Shown one piece after another: positions 43,527 through 55,509 of a stretch of 64,000 bases of DNA (its first letter is position 1; every line of letters begins with the position of its first letter). A program made the position numbers and the translations under genes. The notes under the pieces were generated by a model. The model was not told where the DNA came from and did not search any database. It saw nothing but the letters and a program-made list of their open reading frames with translations. Source of the DNA: Gammaproteobacteria bacterium (GTDB lineage: Bacteria; Pseudomonadota; Gammaproteobacteria; Steroidobacterales; Woeseiaceae); contig JAUIDP010000009.1 in the NCBI GenBank assembly GCA_030429005.1, forward strand, positions 1-64,000, given 5' to 3'.

Positions 43527-44336
43527 ATGTTTACCTATCTCGATCCGGGTGTCCGGGAGCGCCTGCTGGCCGGCGGCAAGCTGCTACGTATAGACCGGCA
43601 GGGTGTGCCCGTGGATGTCGATGCAGTCACCGGTGCCGGCACGATCAGCATCCTCGGGCCGATCCCGTTGCCACTGGCATTCGGCGATGAGCGATACCTC
43701 GGCCAGTGGTACGCCTGTGTGCGCAATACCGAGTTGTCCCGAATCGAAGAAATCGCCGAGCAACTTCGGGCAGCGAACGCGCAGGCCAGTTTTGCGAGCC
43801 TCGCATCGTCGATGGCGGTGAACAGCGTGCTGGTCTTCGGTGACCCGGCTGCTTGGAGCGACCCGCTGGTCCGCGTGCACTCGAGCTGCCTGACCGGGGA
43901 CGTATTTGGTTCGGAACGCTGTGAGTGCGGACCGCAACTGCATTCGGCAGTGCGGCTCATCGATGCAGACGAGCAAGGCGGTATCGTCATCTACATGTCC
44001 GGGCACGAAGGCCGCGGCATTGGTCTGTGGGCAAAGGCCGCAACCTACCTGTTGCAGGATGGCGGCGAAAACACCTATGAAGCCAATCGTTCGCTGGGCT
44101 TGCCGGACGACTCCCGCGATTTCAGCGACGCCGCGACACTGTTGAAGTATTTTCGCGGACCCGGTCCGTTCCGTTTGCTGACCAACAATCCGAAAAAAAT
44201 TACAGACCTCGAAGCGGCGGGTCTCAGGGACATAACACCGGTCAAGCATGTCTTTGGTGTCACTGCCGCGAACAGGCGCTACCTGTCGGCGAAAAAGGAC
44301 TGGGGCCACCAGTTGGCGGACGACGATTTCGATTAA
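43527..44336 (+). CDS. GTP cyclohydrolase II-like protein (RibA family) with N-terminal extension
   Basis: VRVHSSCLTGDVFGSERCECGPQLHSA, IVIYMSGHEGRGIGLWAKAATYLLQD, FRLLTNNPKKITDLEAAG, RRYLSAKKDWGHQL. Confidence 0.88.
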   Translation: MFTYLDPGVRERLLAGGKLLRIDRQGVPVDVDAVTGAGTISILGPIPLPLAFGDERYLGQWYACVRNTELSRIEEIAEQLRAANAQASFASLASSMAVNSVLVFGDPAAWSDPLVRVHSSCLTGDVFGSERCECGPQLHSAVRLIDADEQGGIVIYMSGHEGRGIGLWAKAATYLLQDGGENTYEANRSLGLPDDSRDFSDAATLLKYFRGPGPFRLLTNNPKKITDLEAAGLRDITPVKHVFGVTAANRRYLSAKKDWGHQLADDDFD

Positions 44337-44439: not shown

Positions 44440-45261
44440 ATGTGCCCAGCAGATAAAATCAAGAATACGAAGCGCGGCTATATCATCCCGATCGGTGGCG
44501 CAGAAGAAAAACTCGATAATCCGGAAATCCTCGATCGCTTTGTCGAAATATGCGGCGGCAAATCAGCGCGGATCGGAATTATCCCGACAGCCTCGGAACT
44601 GGAGGATACCGGACGCAACTACGAGAAGCTGTTTCGCAAGCTCGGCATCAAGCACGCGATGGTCCTGCCGTTCGAGACACGGGATGACTGCGAACACAGT
44701 GAATACCTGGACTATATCGACAAGTCGGACGGTGTTTTCCTGACCGGCGGCAACCAGCTGCGTCTTTCGACGACCCTCGGTGGAACAGCGGTTGCACAAC
44801 TGATAAGGCGGCGCAACGCGGCAGGAATGCATGTTGCCGGAACGTCGGCCGGAGCGGCTTTCATGCCGGAGCACATGATCGCAGGTGGCTACGAAGGCGC
44901 AACACCGAGCCCGGACCTGGTCACAATGGCGCCCGGGCTCGGCCTGACCAACAAGTTCATCATCGACCAGCACTTCCGCCAGCGAGACCGCCTCGGCAGG
45001 CTGCTCACCGCGTTGGCCTATAATCCGTTTGCTGTCGGTATTGGCCTGGACGAGGACACGGCGGCTTTCATCGACCCCTCGGATGAGCTGGAGGTTGTCG
45101 GCAGCGGCGGGATTACCGTGATAGACCCGACCGATCTGAGCTATTCTTCCATGGACCAGGCGCGCCGCGGCGATCCGGTCAGCTTGATAGGGGTCAAGCT
45201 ACACATCCTGGTGGCCGGGGGACGATTCGACGTCGAATCACGAGAGGCCGCTGCAGAATAA
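44440..45261 (+). CDS. cphB: Cyanophycinase
   Basis: GYIIPIGGAEEKLDNPEILDRFVEICGGKSARIGIIPTAS...VFLTGGNQLRLSTTLGGT...MHVAGTSAGAAFMPEHMIAGG. Confidence 0.95.
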   Translation: MCPADKIKNTKRGYIIPIGGAEEKLDNPEILDRFVEICGGKSARIGIIPTASELEDTGRNYEKLFRKLGIKHAMVLPFETRDDCEHSEYLDYIDKSDGVFLTGGNQLRLSTTLGGTAVAQLIRRRNAAGMHVAGTSAGAAFMPEHMIAGGYEGATPSPDLVTMAPGLGLTNKFIIDQHFRQRDRLGRLLTALAYNPFAVGIGLDEDTAAFIDPSDELEVVGSGGITVIDPTDLSYSSMDQARRGDPVSLIGVKLHILVAGGRFDVESREAAAE

Positions 45262-45284: not shown

Positions 45285-48071
45285 ATGAAGATCGTCAGCA
45301 CCAACGTCTACGTTGGGCCCAATGTGTTTGCGCATTTTCCGGTTATCCGGCACGTCATCGACCTCGGCGAACTGGAAGACTGGCCGACCGGCAAGCTGGG
45401 CGAGGCCTTCATCGAACCGCTGCTCGCAGCGCTGCCCGGTTTGCACGAGCACGGCTGCTCCTACAAGGAGCCCGGCGGGTTCGTCAGGCGTCTGCGCGAA
45501 GACGAGGGCACATGGCTGGGACATGTCATGGAACATGTGGCCATCGAATTGCAAAACGTTGCCGGTTCAGCTGTCACCTACGGACGCACCCGCTCGATCG
45601 ACGGCCAGCCCGGCCACTACAACATGGTCTTCCAGTACAAGGACGTCGCCGTGGGCCGCGAGTCCAGCACTCTGGCGATGAAGTTGCTGCAGAGCCTGCT
45701 GCCAGGAGACCTGCAGTCCGACAGCGCGCCGGCAGCGGACTGGGATTTTGCTTCCGAGCGCGACGACTTTATCCGCTATGCGCAGCGGCGGGCATTCGGG
45801 CCGAGCACGCAGTCACTGATCGATGCAGCCGAGGCGCGCGATATTCCCTGGCTGCGGCTGAACGACTACAGCCTGGTGCAATTCGGCCACGGCCGCTACC
45901 AGCACCGTATCCAGGCAACGACGACCGGGCGGACCAGCAACATCGCCGTTGAACTGGCTGCGGACAAGGAGGAGACCAACGGAATTCTGCGCGATCTCGG
46001 CCTGCCGGTGCCGAACCAGCGGCTCGTGCGGCGGGTACGCGATGCCGTGCGTGCGGCCGAGCGCATCGGCTACCCGGTGGTCCTGAAACCATTATCCGGC
46101 AACCACGGCCGCGGCGTTTCGATCAACCTGAAAACGCAGTCGGAGGTCGAGGTCGCCTTCGAAAAGGCGGCTGAGCACGGCCGCACGGTCATCGTAGAGA
46201 CCTATCTGGAAGGCTACGACCACCGTTTGCTGGTTGTGAATGGCGAGTTGGTAGCGGCGGCAAAACGCGTGCCGGGGCATGTTGTCGGCGATGGCAAGCA
46301 CACGATCGAGCAGCTGGTGGCGATCGTCAACAAGGATCCGCGCCGCGGTGTCGGCCACGAGAAAGTCCTGACCCGGCTGGAATTCGATCACCAGGCCGAG
46401 CGCTTGCTGGCGAAACTGGGTTATGACAGGAACACGGTGCCCGTCGACGGCGAAGAGGTTTTCCTGCGCACGACGGCGAACCTGTCGACCGGTGGCACGG
46501 CTATCGATGTCACCGACACCATCCACCCGGACAACCGCGAGATGGCTATCCGCGCAATCAAGGCGATCGGGCTCGACATCGGCGGCGTCGACTTCCTGAC
46601 ATTCGATATCACGGAGTCCTATCGTGATACCGGCGGCGGAATTTGCGAGGTCAATGCGGGTCCGGGTTTTCGCATGCATGTAGCACCCAGTGAGGGCACG
46701 CCACGCGATGTCGCCGGACCCGTCATCAATATGCTGTTTCCGCCGGATTCGCCGAGCCGGATCCCGATCGCCGCGGTCACCGGTACCAATGGCAAGACGA
46801 CGACATCGCGCATGCTGGCGCATATCCTGAAATTGTCAGGACATACGGTCGGCCAGACTTCGACGGACGGCGTTTATATCGACGGCAAGCTGAGCGTTTC
46901 CGGCGATATGACCGGCCCTGTCTCGGCGCAAATGATCCTGCGCGATCCGTCGGTCGATGCGGCGGTCATGGAGGTCGCGCGTGGTGGCATGCTCCGCAGC
47001 GGCCTCGGTTTCCAGAAGTGCGATGTTGCGTGCTGCATCAACGTCTCGGCCGATCACCTGGGTTTGCGCGGTATTGATACGCTGGAGCAGCTGGCGGAGA
47101 TCAAGCGGGTGCCGGTGGAAATCGCCCAAAATGCTGCAGTCCTGAATGCCGATGACCAGCATTGCCTGCAGATGGCCGACTACACTGACGCAGCGCGGCT
47201 TTGCTACGTGACGATGAACCCGGGGCATCCGCTGGTGAAACAACATATCCAGGCGGGTGGCCAGGCGTTCGTGCTGGAGCAGGGCATGAACGGCCACATG
47301 ATCACGATCTATGACAATGACGGCCACACACCGTTGCTGTGGACGCACCTGATTCCGGCGACTATCGAGGGTCGCGCAATGCACAATGTGCAAAACGCCA
47401 TGTTTGCTGCGGCGCTCGCTTACAACATGCATATCAAGCTGGAAGATATCCGGCATGGCTTGCGCACCTTCGACTCGTCTTTCTTCCAGGCGCCCGGGCG
47501 CACCAACATTTATAACGAGCATCCGTTTCGGGTCATTCTCGACTACGCGCACAACCCGGCTGCCGTCAGGGCAATGTGCAGCCTCGTTGATCGCTTCGAG
47601 CCAGAGGGCAAACGGATCGTTGTGCTGGCAGCGCCCGGGGACCGGCGTGACCAGGACATTCGCGACATCGCGGCAATCGCCGCGGGGCACTTCGACTATT
47701 TCGTTTGTCGCCGGGATGACAACCTGCGCGGTCGCGGCGACGACGAAGTGGCCGTCATGCTCAAGAACAAGCTGCTCGAAGAAGGTATTTCAGCCGAGCG
47801 GATCGAAGTTGTGCCGGACGAACAGGAGGCGACGGCACGCGCGCTGGAGATGGCCGAGCCGGGCGACCTGCTGCTGGTTCTCGCGGACAACGTCAAGCGC
47901 ACCTGGAAACAGATCATTTACTTCAATTCCGGCGCCAGGATCGACGAGGCCACACGCAAGGCACCGGCGGCAGTCGATCTGCCGGATCTCGAAGGTTTCG
48001 AGCTCGATGAGCACCTGGAGATCATCAGCGACGAGAGAGGTGTGCGCATCGCCCGTGAAGAAGGTGACTAG
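45285..48071 (+). CDS. cphA: Cyanophycin synthetase
   Basis: N domain VYVGPNVFAHFPVIRHVIDLG; ATP-grasp VLKPLSGNHGRGVSINLKT...ICEVNAGPGFRMHVAPSEG; Mur ligase AAVTGTNGKTTTSRMLAHIL...EVARGGMLRSGLGFQKCDV. Confidence 0.96.
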   Translation: MKIVSTNVYVGPNVFAHFPVIRHVIDLGELEDWPTGKLGEAFIEPLLAALPGLHEHGCSYKEPGGFVRRLREDEGTWLGHVMEHVAIELQNVAGSAVTYGRTRSIDGQPGHYNMVFQYKDVAVGRESSTLAMKLLQSLLPGDLQSDSAPAADWDFASERDDFIRYAQRRAFGPSTQSLIDAAEARDIPWLRLNDYSLVQFGHGRYQHRIQATTTGRTSNIAVELAADKEETNGILRDLGLPVPNQRLVRRVRDAVRAAERIGYPVVLKPLSGNHGRGVSINLKTQSEVEVAFEKAAEHGRTVIVETYLEGYDHRLLVVNGELVAAAKRVPGHVVGDGKHTIEQLVAIVNKDPRRGVGHEKVLTRLEFDHQAERLLAKLGYDRNTVPVDGEEVFLRTTANLSTGGTAIDVTDTIHPDNREMAIRAIKAIGLDIGGVDFLTFDITESYRDTGGGICEVNAGPGFRMHVAPSEGTPRDVAGPVINMLFPPDSPSRIPIAAVTGTNGKTTTSRMLAHILKLSGHTVGQTSTDGVYIDGKLSVSGDMTGPVSAQMILRDPSVDAAVMEVARGGMLRSGLGFQKCDVACCINVSADHLGLRGIDTLEQLAEIKRVPVEIAQNAAVLNADDQHCLQMADYTDAARLCYVTMNPGHPLVKQHIQAGGQAFVLEQGMNGHMITIYDNDGHTPLLWTHLIPATIEGRAMHNVQNAMFAAALAYNMHIKLEDIRHGLRTFDSSFFQAPGRTNIYNEHPFRVILDYAHNPAAVRAMCSLVDRFEPEGKRIVVLAAPGDRRDQDIRDIAAIAAGHFDYFVCRRDDNLRGRGDDEVAVMLKNKLLEEGISAERIEVVPDEQEATARALEMAEPGDLLLVLADNVKRTWKQIIYFNSGARIDEATRKAPAAVDLPDLEGFELDEHLEIISDERGVRIAREEGD

Positions 48072-49744
48072 TGGAGTTCCTTGACGCGCGCCGGCTGACC
48101 GGGCCGAGCCTGCTTGCGGACTCGCCCGGGTCTATTCTCGACGTTGCGTGCACACGCAAGGAAGCGGATCGACTGGTCCCGGTCTGGACCCGCCATGTCG
48201 AAAGGATGCTTGGCGATCTCGGCTGGGAGGACAGTACACTCAGCCTGTCGCACCTGTCCGGCGGCATCAGCCTGTTTTTTACCGCGGCCATAGACGCGCT
48301 GTATGCCGCGACGGAAGTCAACGAATGGGCATGGGCCGCCAGTGCAGCCGAGTTGAGCGACAGCGAGCCTCCCGACTACGCGGATGCGCTGGCTGCGGTG
48401 AATGCAGCAATTGCCGAGGAAGCGAATCCCGACTTGTTGGCGCTGCAACGCGAAGCGGCTGCAACCGAGCGGTCGTTTCTCTGGGACGACGACGACGCGT
48501 CCGTCGGGCTTGGCAGGTTTTCGAGCACCTGGCCGGTACGCGAGTTGCCCGCACCTGGCGAAGTGGACTGGCCGGCGCATGACGATATTCCCGTCGGTCT
48601 CGTGACCGGCACCAACGGCAAGACCACGACAGTGCGGCTGGCCAAACACATCTTGCGCACGGCGAACAGGAATGTCGGCCTCAGCTCGACCGACTGGATC
48701 GCGGTCAACGAACGGATCCTCGACCGGGGCGACTGGTCCGGGCCGGGCGGCGCCCGGGCGGTGCTCCGGGAGCAGGAGGTCGAGGTCGCAATCCTCGAAT
48801 CGGCCCGCGGTGGTCTGCTGCGGCGCGGACTCGGTGTCAATGCAGCCGCTGCAGCGCTGATCACCAATATTGCAGAAGATCATCTCGGCGACTTCGGTTC
48901 GCGGAACCTTGCCGAATTGCTGGACATCAAGTGGATTGTCAGCCGCGCAGTCGTCGGCCTGGGCCGGCTGATCCTGAATGCCGACGACCCGTCGCTGGTG
49001 TCGAAGGCGGATCGTTACCCGGGCGAGCTGGTCTGGTTTTCATTGCAGCCGGACAGTGTCGTTGTCAGCAAGCACGTCGCGGCCGGAGGCAGTGCCTTCG
49101 TGTTGCATGGCGAGGAACTGGTCAGTCTGCAAGGTGACGCCAGCCGGGCGATTTGCCGTGTCGAGGAAATTGCGATTACGCTGCAAGGTGCCGCACGCCA
49201 CAATATCGCCAATGCCCTGGCTGCAGCGGCGCTGACTTCCTGCCTGGGCGCCTCACTGGCGGACATACGCGCAGGTCTGACTACCGTTTCGCAGGACGAC
49301 AATCCGGGTCGCTGCAATGTGTTCGAAATCGACGGCCGCAAGGTACTGGTTGATTTTGCGCACAATCCGCATGCCATGCAGGCGCTGTTTGACATGGCAC
49401 AGTTGCTGCCGGCGAAACGCAGGGTCTTGTGTTTCGGCCAGGCAGGCGACCGGCCGGATGACGCGATTCGCGAGCTGGCCCGCAGAGCCTGGTCGATCGG
49501 CCTGGATCGTGTCGTCGTTTCCGAACTGGCCAATTACCACCGTGGACGGGAACCAAACGAGGTATACGGCATCATCCGGGACGAGTTGTTGCAGCAGGGT
49601 GCCGGCCAGCAGCAAATTGCTCACTTCGCCGAGGAAACAGAATCACTCCAGTCGGCCATGGAGTGGTCCCAACCCGGCGACCTTGTCATCATGCTGGCGC
49701 TTGGCAGCTCGGCCAGGATCCAGGAACTGCTGAAGAGCTGGTAG
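48071..49744 (+). CDS. Mur ligase family protein, CphA-like C-terminal domain without ATP-grasp
   Basis: GTG start overlapping cphA stop by 1 nt; VGLVTGTNGKTTTVRLAKHILRTANRNVGLSSTDWIAVN, ILESARGGLLRRGLGVNAAAAALITNIAEDHLG, VLVDFAHNPHAMQALFDM; N-terminus RRLTGPSLLADSPGSILDV. Confidence 0.88.
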   Translation: MEFLDARRLTGPSLLADSPGSILDVACTRKEADRLVPVWTRHVERMLGDLGWEDSTLSLSHLSGGISLFFTAAIDALYAATEVNEWAWAASAAELSDSEPPDYADALAAVNAAIAEEANPDLLALQREAAATERSFLWDDDDASVGLGRFSSTWPVRELPAPGEVDWPAHDDIPVGLVTGTNGKTTTVRLAKHILRTANRNVGLSSTDWIAVNERILDRGDWSGPGGARAVLREQEVEVAILESARGGLLRRGLGVNAAAAALITNIAEDHLGDFGSRNLAELLDIKWIVSRAVVGLGRLILNADDPSLVSKADRYPGELVWFSLQPDSVVVSKHVAAGGSAFVLHGEELVSLQGDASRAICRVEEIAITLQGAARHNIANALAAAALTSCLGASLADIRAGLTTVSQDDNPGRCNVFEIDGRKVLVDFAHNPHAMQALFDMAQLLPAKRRVLCFGQAGDRPDDAIRELARRAWSIGLDRVVVSELANYHRGREPNEVYGIIRDELLQQGAGQQQIAHFAEETESLQSAMEWSQPGDLVIMLALGSSARIQELLKSW

Positions 49745-52357: not shown

Positions 52358-54103
52358 TTGACGAAACGCATCATCTTGATGGTTGCCTGCCTGCAACTCA
52401 CCGTTGCAGGGGGTGGCGTACGTGCGCAGGCGATTGCCGGCTACGGCGCAACCTACCATCCGCAGTTCAGCAAGACCGGCATGGTCGCAGTGCAGAATCG
52501 TCTGCCGGCGGAGATCGGCGCCGAGGTCCTTGCCGATGGCGGCAACGCGGTTGACGCTGCTGTCGCCGTTGGTTTCGCGCTCGCAGTGACATTGCCGCGG
52601 GCCGGCAATATAGGCGGCGGTGGTTTCATGCTGGTTTACGATGCGGCCAGCGGCGAAACGGCGGCGATAGACTACCGCGAGATTGCGCCGCTCGGCGCCA
52701 GCCGCGACATGTTCCTGGATGCGGACGGCAATGCCGACCCGCAGCTGTCGCGAGACTCGCACCGCGCGGCAGGCGTTCCGGGCACTGTCGCGGGCCTGTA
52801 CCTTGCGCACCAGGAGTTTGGCAAGTTGCCCTGGCGAAGATTGCTGCAGCCTGCAATCGAACTGGCCCGCGATGGCATCGTAGTCACCCATGATCTTGCC
52901 ACTCAGCTCGCCAGGCGCCAGCAGTCACTTTGCCTGAATGCGGCGACTTGCCGGTATTTCTTCAAGCCTGGCGGCGTGCCATACCAGATGGGTGAGCGAC
53001 TGGTGCAGTCCGACCTGGCGTGGTCGTTGCAACTCATTGCCGACAAGGGACCAGAGGCTTTCTACAAAGGCGAAATCGCGCAAAAAATCGTCGCCGAGAT
53101 GGAGCGCGGCGATGGACTGATCGACATGGCGTCGCTGGCCGCCTACGAGCCGACGATTCGCGAGCCGGTTCGCGGGGACTACCGCGGTTACGAAATCGTT
53201 GCCATGTCGCCGCCCAGTTCGGGCGGTGTGCACATTCTGCAGATGTTGAACGTACTCGAGCATTTCCCGATTCGCGAGTTCGGGGCAGGTAGCGCAGATG
53301 AAGTTCATGTCCTGACAGAAGTCATGCGGCTGGCCTACGCGGATCGCAGCAAGCACCTGGGTGATCCGGAATTCTACGACGTGCCAATGGACTGGCTAAC
53401 CAGCGAAGAATACGCTGCGCAGCTGGCCAAAACGATTCGCATGGACAAGGCTCGTCCGTCGAGCGACGTACACCCCGGCGTGCCGCCGGCCGCCGAGAGT
53501 GAGGACACGACCCACTATTCGATCGTCGATGCCGACGGCAACATGGTCGCCAACACGTATACGCTGAATACGTCGTATGGCTCCGGTATCGCGGTCGACG
53601 GTGCCGGCTTTATCCTGAACAACGAAATGGACGACTTCTCGGCCAAGCCTGGCGCACCAAACGCCTATGGGTTGCTGGGTGATGACGCCAACGCCGTAGC
53701 GCCGCGCAAGCGCCCTTTAAGCTCGATGACGCCGTTTATCGTTTTCCGGGATGGCGAGCCGTGGTTCGCCGCAGGCAGCCCCGGCGGATCGCGCATCATC
53801 TCTGCGTGCCTGCAAATGATCGTCAATGTCATCGATCATGGACGCAATATTGCCGATGCCGTCAGCATGCCGCGCATGCATCACCAGTGGTACCCTGACA
53901 AGCTGGTAGTTGAGGCAGGGCACAGCCCGGACACGGTGAAAATACTGCAGGCGCGCGGCCACGAGGTTGTCCGGGTTGGCTCGACGTATACCAGCGTGCA
54001 GGCGGTCGCCTTTGCCGAGGATTTCTTCCAGGGCGCCGCCGATCCGAGAAGGCCGGATGCTGCCGCAGTCGCACCTGCCGAGATCATGACCGATACCGAC
54101 TAG
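52358..54103 (+). CDS. Gamma-glutamyltranspeptidase
   Basis: TTG start; VAVQNRLPAEIGAEVLADGGNAVDAAVAVGFALAVTLPRAGNIGGGGFMLVYDA; EDTTHYSIVDADGNMVANTYTLNTSYGSGIAVDGAGFILNNEMDDFS (catalytic Thr region); GSPGGSRI. Confidence 0.95.
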   Translation: MTKRIILMVACLQLTVAGGGVRAQAIAGYGATYHPQFSKTGMVAVQNRLPAEIGAEVLADGGNAVDAAVAVGFALAVTLPRAGNIGGGGFMLVYDAASGETAAIDYREIAPLGASRDMFLDADGNADPQLSRDSHRAAGVPGTVAGLYLAHQEFGKLPWRRLLQPAIELARDGIVVTHDLATQLARRQQSLCLNAATCRYFFKPGGVPYQMGERLVQSDLAWSLQLIADKGPEAFYKGEIAQKIVAEMERGDGLIDMASLAAYEPTIREPVRGDYRGYEIVAMSPPSSGGVHILQMLNVLEHFPIREFGAGSADEVHVLTEVMRLAYADRSKHLGDPEFYDVPMDWLTSEEYAAQLAKTIRMDKARPSSDVHPGVPPAAESEDTTHYSIVDADGNMVANTYTLNTSYGSGIAVDGAGFILNNEMDDFSAKPGAPNAYGLLGDDANAVAPRKRPLSSMTPFIVFRDGEPWFAAGSPGGSRIISACLQMIVNVIDHGRNIADAVSMPRMHHQWYPDKLVVEAGHSPDTVKILQARGHEVVRVGSTYTSVQAVAFAEDFFQGAADPRRPDAAAVAPAEIMTDTD

Positions 54104-54123
54104 CGCCGCTGCCTGGCGGCCAC

Positions 54124-55509
54124 TCAAACGGAACGCAGGTACCAGTCGAAATCGAGCGCGTGGATCGTATCGTGAAAGCGCTTTTCCTCCGAGCGACGAT
54201 TGATCGCATAGGCTTTGCAAAACGCTTCACCCAGGTACGCCGGCAGGATCTTGCCGCGCGAAAACTTTGTCAACGCCGCGTCCCAGCGATCGGGAATTCG
54301 AATCTTCGGGTTAATGACTTCGCCTTCGCCGATCATCCGGCCCGGGTCACACTTGTTCTTCAGGCCGAAGTGCACACCGGCCATGATTGCTGCGGTCACC
54401 AGGTACGGGTTGGCGTCGGCGCCAGCGACCCGGTGCTCGAAGCGCAGGTTCTTCTTGTCGGACTGCGGGATACGGACCGACACAACCCGGTGGTTGACGC
54501 CCCAGTTGGTGTCGACCGGCGCGAAATTCTCCGGCAGCAGGCGCCGGTAGGAATTCGCATTCGGCGAAAAGATCGCGGTAGCCTCGGGCATCGTCTTCAG
54601 TAGCCCGCCGACGGCGTAGCGCAATCTCGCCGAGAAAGGGGGCGTCGCCAGGCTGTCGCGGTCCTGCGAGAAGTAGTTCCTGCCGTTCCTGTCCAAAAGG
54701 CTCATATGCACATGCAGGCCGTTGCCCGCATCTTCGGCAAACGGCTTGGCCATGAAACAGGCCACGAAACCGTGCTTGAGCGCGGCGGCCTTGACGGCCC
54801 GTTTCAGCAGGACGGCGTGGTCGCAGGCCAGCACCGGATCGCTGACATGCATCAGGTTGATCTCGAACTGGCCGGCTGAATACTCGGAAATGACCGTGTC
54901 GGCCGGGATATTCTGCGCATCACAATAGTCGTACACGTCATCGAGAAACGGCTGCACCGCGTTGAGATCATCCGGGTGGTAGACCTGCACACCCGGCTGG
55001 CGGCGCCCGAGTCCCGGGATCCGCGGCGCCCGCTTGGTCGGTTTGTCTGTCTTGCCCGAAAGCAGGTAGAACTCCAGCTCGGTTGCCATGACCATCGTCA
55101 GGCCCATTTTCTGCAATGGCTGCATGGCTCTCTCGAGCACGGCGCGCGGGTCGGCAAAATACGGCGTACCGTCTTCGTTGAACGAACGAAACAGCGCCTG
55201 CGCCATCGGTCGCTTTGACCAGGGCACCGGCGCGAGGCTGCCAGGCACGACGCTGCAGGGCACATCGGGATCGCCGTCGTCGTAGCCGGGCAGTCCCTCG
55301 ACGACTTCGCCAAGCACGTCCAGCAGCACAGTGCCGCCACAAAAATAGAACGGCTCGGTGCAGGTTTTTTCGAAGTCCTTGGGGCGCACACGTTTGCCCT
55401 TGAGGATGCCGTGTACGTCGGGAATCAATACCTCGAGGAATGCCGTGTCCGGGTATTTCTTCAGTAGCCGCTTCAGCTCGGTGAGCTGCGGATTCGTCTT
55501 GTTGACCAT
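54124..55509 (-). CDS. Glutamine synthetase family protein (glutamate-putrescine ligase-like)
   Basis: NLMHVSDPVLACDHAVLLKRAVKAAALKHGFVACFMAKPFAEDAGNGLHVHMSLLDRNGRNYF; EHRVAGADANPYL. Confidence 0.9.
   Translation of the reverse strand: MVNKTNPQLTELKRLLKKYPDTAFLEVLIPDVHGILKGKRVRPKDFEKTCTEPFYFCGGTVLLDVLGEVVEGLPGYDDGDPDVPCSVVPGSLAPVPWSKRPMAQALFRSFNEDGTPYFADPRAVLERAMQPLQKMGLTMVMATELEFYLLSGKTDKPTKRAPRIPGLGRRQPGVQVYHPDDLNAVQPFLDDVYDYCDAQNIPADTVISEYSAGQFEINLMHVSDPVLACDHAVLLKRAVKAAALKHGFVACFMAKPFAEDAGNGLHVHMSLLDRNGRNYFSQDRDSLATPPFSARLRYAVGGLLKTMPEATAIFSPNANSYRRLLPENFAPVDTNWGVNHRVVSVRIPQSDKKNLRFEHRVAGADANPYLVTAAIMAGVHFGLKNKCDPGRMIGEGEVINPKIRIPDRWDAALTKFSRGKILPAYLGEAFCKAYAINRRSEEKRFHDTIHALDFDWYLRSV

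Follow-up and report, generated by a model that had tools for sequence, protein, structure and literature searches.

Gene organisation of the locus

In this study, we investigated the cyanophycin gene cluster in a 64,000-nucleotide stretch of DNA from a gammaproteobacterium of the family Woeseiaceae (positions 1 to 64,000 of contig JAUIDP010000009.1, assembly GCA_030429005.1; hereafter the window). Attention was given to the gene directly behind the cyanophycin synthetase gene cphA, which encodes a stand-alone paralogue of the Mur-ligase (M) domain of CphA and is called the partner here. Three genes are consecutive on the plus strand: cphB for cyanophycinase (44440..45261), with the canonical substrate-site motif DQHFRQRDRLGR; cphA (45285..48071), encoding a synthetase of 928 amino acid residues with all three domains; and the partner gene (48071..49744), encoding 557 residues from a GTG start. 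The cphA stop codon TAG (48069-48071) and this GTG have one G in common. These coordinates agree with the original prediction, made from the sequence of the window, of a 557-residue open reading frame behind cphB and cphA with a GTG start that shares one base with the cphA stop. The overlap is not general, and the gaps between cphA and the partner gene range from -1 to +88 nucleotides among orthologous loci. Comparison of tails across loci placed a C-terminal motif of CphA, DERGVRIAREEGD with a terminal Asp, at 48030..48068 on the plus strand.

Within the partner, on the same strand, the N-terminal ~171 residues (48071..48583) form a shrunken CphA-type N domain and the stretch lying ahead of ATP-grasp in CphA, without an HxxEH motif, as delineated by hhalign and Foldseek. 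The Mur core and lid occupy residues 171-545 (48581..49705; Pfam and alignment), with the P-loop GTNGKTTT at 48608..48631 and the lid loop YHRGRE at 49535..49552. The latter aligns with DNPR of MurE and DDxxRGR of CphA and is diagnostic of the stand-alone clade described below. The P-loop, the CphA-paralogous segment ESARGGLLRRGLG and DFAHNPHAMQ, all named in the original prediction, were located in the open reading frame.

Domain architecture and fold of the partner

Pfam assigned an N domain, ATP-grasp and Mur domains to the neighbouring CphA, and only Mur_ligase_M (178-388) and Mur_ligase_C (413-542) to the partner; residues 1 to ~170 of the partner matched no Pfam or NCBIfam family, including PF18921. 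The best NCBIfam model was cyanophycin synthetase (E 7e-108), aligned at profile positions 477-848, which cover the M domain only, whereas the MurE model gave E 4e-28 and 98.6 bits, under its cut-off of 257. In hhalign, residues 99-153 of the partner matched the part of CphA immediately ahead of ATP-grasp (151-208), a match that is weak on its own (E 3.4e-4, probability 38%). The AlphaFold model of the partner was obtained from 42 orthologues (predicted local distance difference test, pLDDT, 93.4; predicted template modelling score, pTM, 0.90), and its whole chain was superposed by Foldseek on CphA structures with a query template modelling (TM) score of 0.82-0.83 over 870-888 columns; the score by query against MurE was 0.57. 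The superposition includes ~310 gap columns, which fits an absent ATP-grasp domain. Because the M domain makes up ~67% of the chain and cannot alone give a TM-score of 0.83, an N domain of CphA fold is present, as the suggested likeness of the N-terminus to a CphA-type N domain had implied.

No ATP-grasp domain was found in the partner using Pfam, hhalign and AlphaFold/Foldseek, and a cryptic ATP-grasp in its N-terminus was thus ruled out, in line with the earlier claim that none lies between the N-terminus and the P-loop. The partner is a CphA paralogue without ATP-grasp (N-M architecture); NCBIfam, tree and Foldseek agree on the stand-alone, Mur-only CphA homologue originally proposed. It represents a distinct ATP-grasp-less subfamily of the wider CphA family, to which the name "cyanophycin synthetase" should not apply, and addition of Asp by it should be impossible since ATP-grasp is absent. 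The HxxEH endo-cyanophycinase site, which makes primers, occurs in 0/42 partners and in 94/94 accompanying CphAs, thereby ruling out that the partner compensates for a lost CphA primer site. The full HxxEH motif has been described in 83% of CphA1 at nr70 (PMC9262961).

Linkage to cphA and taxonomic distribution

Among 61 genomes around that of the window, the partner and CphA were found together in 38, the partner alone in 1 (cut at the contig start), CphA alone in 0 and neither in 22 (Fisher p = 1e-15, with relatedness ignored). The gene is practically always directly behind cphA (38/39 partner-bearing relatives). In wider samples, a full-length partner adjoins CphA in every genome where it was found. 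The linkage of partner and cphA is far beyond chance. Orthologues occur in Pseudomonadota, Acidobacteriota and Myxococcota, and the partner also lies beside CphA in Lysobacter, two Acidobacteriota and Plesiocystis. The order cphB-cphA-partner recurs in Ruegeria, Shinella and a 'Roseateles' plasmid, where RefSeq gives only the label 'Mur ligase family protein' (WP_117873666.1, Ruegeria; WP_160788060.1, Shinella) and no function. Across 28 loci, cphA was present in 28, cphB in 26 and an isoaspartyl-dipeptidase-like amidohydrolase in 11, mostly directly upstream of cphB.

A related stand-alone protein was detected in 20/198 sampled genomes of Actinomycetota, all 20 of which encode CphA; cyanophycinase was present in 22/22 genomes checked in this phylum. 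The actinobacterial gene usually lies close to cphA on the opposite strand, in convergent orientation (L054, L057, L062, L181-L199). Pfam placed a C-terminal TPR region in the copies at L054 and L062, and in several others the open frame is longer. The pairing of partner and CphA is ancient and extends over four or more bacterial phyla.

Phylogeny and co-divergence

The stand-alone copies all fall into a single clade (97/100), which splits into the group of the window (100/95) and an actinobacterial sister group (100/100); a separate tree likewise supports a single origin. This clade nests in the radiation of CphA M domains, far apart from MurE (100/100). The earlier note had named, as a result that would refute its proposal, a placement among ordinary MurE or folylpolyglutamate synthase (FPGS) enzymes without cphA linkage; the tree instead groups the partner with CphA M domains. 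The partner-carrying CphAs also form one clade of 28 rows (support 99), comprising 26 with a partner and 2 in which the contig breaks off immediately after cphA. Distances between partners correlate with those between the matching CphAs (Mantel r 0.86), although shared descent alone also yields such correlation. The stand-alone partner arose once and co-diverged with its CphA.

Two further proteins of CphA type were observed. A 724-residue protein on plasmid 3 of Deinococcus deserti (L038:5023-7197) has a CphA N domain and Mur with no ATP-grasp match; it lies on another CphA branch with CphA-type loops and is apparently an independent loss of ATP-grasp. A 701-residue CphA-like protein in Duganella (L100:9220-11322), encoded convergently to cphA, has no recognised ATP-grasp and an aberrant RDRKH loop.

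Active site of the partner

Active-site residues, in TeCphA1/SuCphA1 numbering, were compared in 27 aligned partners. K499, E558, D585, H586, K602, R731 and H748 are identical in 27/27, and T500 is T or S. Four features separate the partners from fused CphAs, namely S542G (27/27), loss of R778 (27/27), loss of Asp801, with Tyr at 803 in 25/27, and a lid loop that is one residue longer, mostly YxRGR instead of DDxxRGR. The same four changes are present in 3 + 19 actinobacterial stand-alone copies. The partner of the window has the marks of this clade: G542, no R778, a lengthened lid loop, N-M length and a position adjoining cphA. The changed positions align with the acceptor loop and the DNPR loop of MurE; in MurE, DNPR contacts the incoming amino acid. 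Newly fixed partner positions (G227, R229, R252 and Y489) are invariant or nearly so. In CphA, Lys499, Glu558, Asp585, His586, Arg731 and His748 bind ATP/Mg or abolish activity when mutated (PMC9427784, PMC9262961). The intact ATP, Mg and catalytic set together with consistently altered loops makes it probable that the partner is active as a ligase and takes a different acceptor and/or amino acid.

Operon enzymes and the bulk polymer

The co-operonic CphA retains the arginine-site residues R778 and D801 in 26/26 cases, and its M site is intact; a partner standing in for a dead CphA M site was thus ruled out. The operon cyanophycinase keeps DQHFxxRxRxGR in 26/26 (one with Ala for Gly), and His174 and Arg178 of CphB are substrate-binding (PMC12661447). 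These sites make normal cyanophycin the most likely bulk polymer. Isoaspartyl dipeptidases are promiscuous (PMC10206079) and are therefore uninformative on the polymer side chain. The original prediction had considered a different side chain, such as Lys, Orn or citrulline. An amino-acid pocket unlike that of CphA, which the altered loops suggest, agrees with this idea, whereas a different side chain in the bulk polymer is disfavoured by the retained arginine site and the canonical cyanophycinase.

An IadA-like amidohydrolase gene directly upstream of cphB was observed at L048:3017-4291, L161, L166, L171-L173 and other loci, giving a full synthesis-degradation operon. The locus of the window lacks this gene, and an IaaA-type gene lies elsewhere in the same genome. 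Just upstream of cphB, a short GTP-cyclohydrolase-II-like gene (43527-44336) scores below the TIGR00505 ribA cut-off and above that of PRK00393. Near the cluster, 52358-55509 holds a gamma-glutamyltransferase gene and a glutamine-synthetase-like gene, the latter below every GlnA-type cut-off.

C-terminal tail of CphA

At the C-terminus of partner-bearing CphAs, a variable linker leads into a conserved DERGVR[IL]AR..E[ED]x-Asp. The terminal residue is Asp in 113/113 distinct motif-bearing tails, preceded by Ala, Gly, Ser, Glu, Asn or Asp. The DERGVR..D tail is confined to the partner-bearing CphA clade (L006-L051, L213-L219, L230-L236, L254-L303), and the motif was not present in sister CphAs without a partner (L061, L284-L286). 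Terminal Asp codons are GAC or GAT and all three stop codons are in use; with codons and stops varying in this way, selection on the tail acts at the protein level. That the conserved 'EEGD' at the C-terminus reflects a Shine-Dalgarno sequence for the partner gene was ruled out, because synonymous codons vary and the residues persist where the partner starts 60-90 nucleotides downstream.

Discussion

That the partner is a CphA paralogue tightly linked to cphA is almost certain, and its conserved catalytic residues make it likely to be active. We see an even chance that it serves as a dedicated partner of one CphA clade, that is, an ATP-dependent ligase in or on the CphA complex that acts on an Asp chain end. 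CphA itself would then produce ordinary beta-Asp-Arg cyanophycin, and the partner would activate the beta-carboxylate of Asp and couple an amino acid held otherwise than Arg is in CphA. The chain end concerned would most likely be initiating or otherwise special, rather than bulk polymer. Growth of cyanophycin takes place at its C-terminal Asp, whose side chain is used in the M reaction (PMC9262961); docking of the tail or protein-tethered priming are therefore the leading candidate mechanisms. Recognition of the CphA tail by the partner is a serious possibility that falls just short of even.

Several observations weigh against a dedicated ligase of this kind. CphAs of the partner clade all keep HxxEH, so primers should come from CphA's own N domain, and the partner evolves 2.15x faster than the CphA M domain, which a regulatory subunit would also fit. 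Twelve Myxococcota CphAs hold the tail and its terminal Asp with no partner in the neighbourhood searched (L255, L295, L297, L301, L302, L303, L316, L318, L320, L322, L323, L325). The actinobacterial CphAs that have a stand-alone copy carry a different tail, QAG[AS]..DPD, whose last residue is not Asp. In an AlphaFold model of a chain in which the stop was read through to join tail and partner, the tail was disordered (pLDDT < 50) with no confident contact, the Asp carboxylate not being free in this construct.

A priming role of the partner appears rather unlikely. In its protein-tethered form, by analogy with glycogenin, the C-terminal Asp of CphA would serve as first acceptor. As an M-type ligase adapted to the C-terminus of a protein, the partner would aminoacylate the beta-carboxylate of this Asp, and CphA would then extend cyanophycin on its own tail. 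Such a route would account for the terminal Asp, the mostly small penultimate residue, the flexible linker and the changed acceptor loop, as well as for the loss of ATP-grasp, which this step does not need. The retained primer-making N site and the actinobacterial tails argue against it, and we regard it as fairly improbable. The plainer alternative is that the tail is a mere docking peptide, a reading that fits a partner of either kind, catalytic or regulatory. We consider this plausible, somewhat below an even chance: the tail motif and the partner are shared features of the clade, both missing from the sister CphAs, and docking peptides typically combine a disordered linker with a conserved end, but the tail-only Myxococcota (where a distant copy of the partner is possible) and the read-through model, in which no docking was predicted, count against it.

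The faster evolution of the partner, the loss of residues expected to hold Arg and the position of the gene directly behind cphA would also suit a non-catalytic or regulatory subunit, a protein of Mur fold that would join CphA and modulate it, binding ATP without coupling anything. This is unlikely, however, given that 27/27 partners from several phyla share the P-loop Lys, Mg Glu, Asp-His pair, Mur-carbamylated lysine and lid Arg/His, and that the newly acquired positions are themselves fixed or nearly so. The altered loop at the MurE specificity loop DNPR might instead point to a second side-chain ligase, one that would place some other amino acid, or Arg at another rate, on CphA's bulk polymer; the arginine-type site of the operon CphA and the canonical cyanophycinase make this very doubtful. 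An ordinary MurE, MurT or folylpolyglutamate-type ligase located here by chance would share the Mur fold, yet this explanation can practically be discarded: the CphA M domain is by far the closest model, the tree refutes it and the separate Mur ligases of the genome lie on other contigs.

Compared with CphA1 (TIGR02068; PDB 7lg5, 7wae), the partner has the N domain fold, the Mur core and lid and the full ATP, Mg and catalytic set, and nests with CphA M domains in the tree, but it lacks ATP-grasp and the HxxEH primer site and has changed acceptor and amino-acid loops. CphA2 is likewise a CphA paralogue with one ligase activity remaining; it retains ATP-grasp and has lost the Mur P-loop and lid (PMC9427784), whereas the partner is its mirror image, with ATP-grasp lost and the Mur site kept. 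MurE shares the Mur middle and C-terminal domains, but the N-terminal part of the partner is CphA-like, DNPR is absent and the two are distant in the tree. The RefSeq proteins WP_117873666.1 and WP_160788060.1 belong to the partner's family and have the same gene order. A literature search, with subscription journals and preprints outside its scope, found no description of the partner or its function, and none of the Asp-ended CphA tail in the papers searched.

Published accounts treat the synthesis of cyanophycin as the work of one enzyme, with the origin of the first primer as an open problem. A second enzyme, itself ancient, is found with CphA in four or more phyla, along with a tail that ends in the residue on which the polymer is extended. 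The partner may be a subunit of CphA, and its reaction could involve an acceptor or amino acid that is new among Mur-type ligases, with possible relevance to polymer production.

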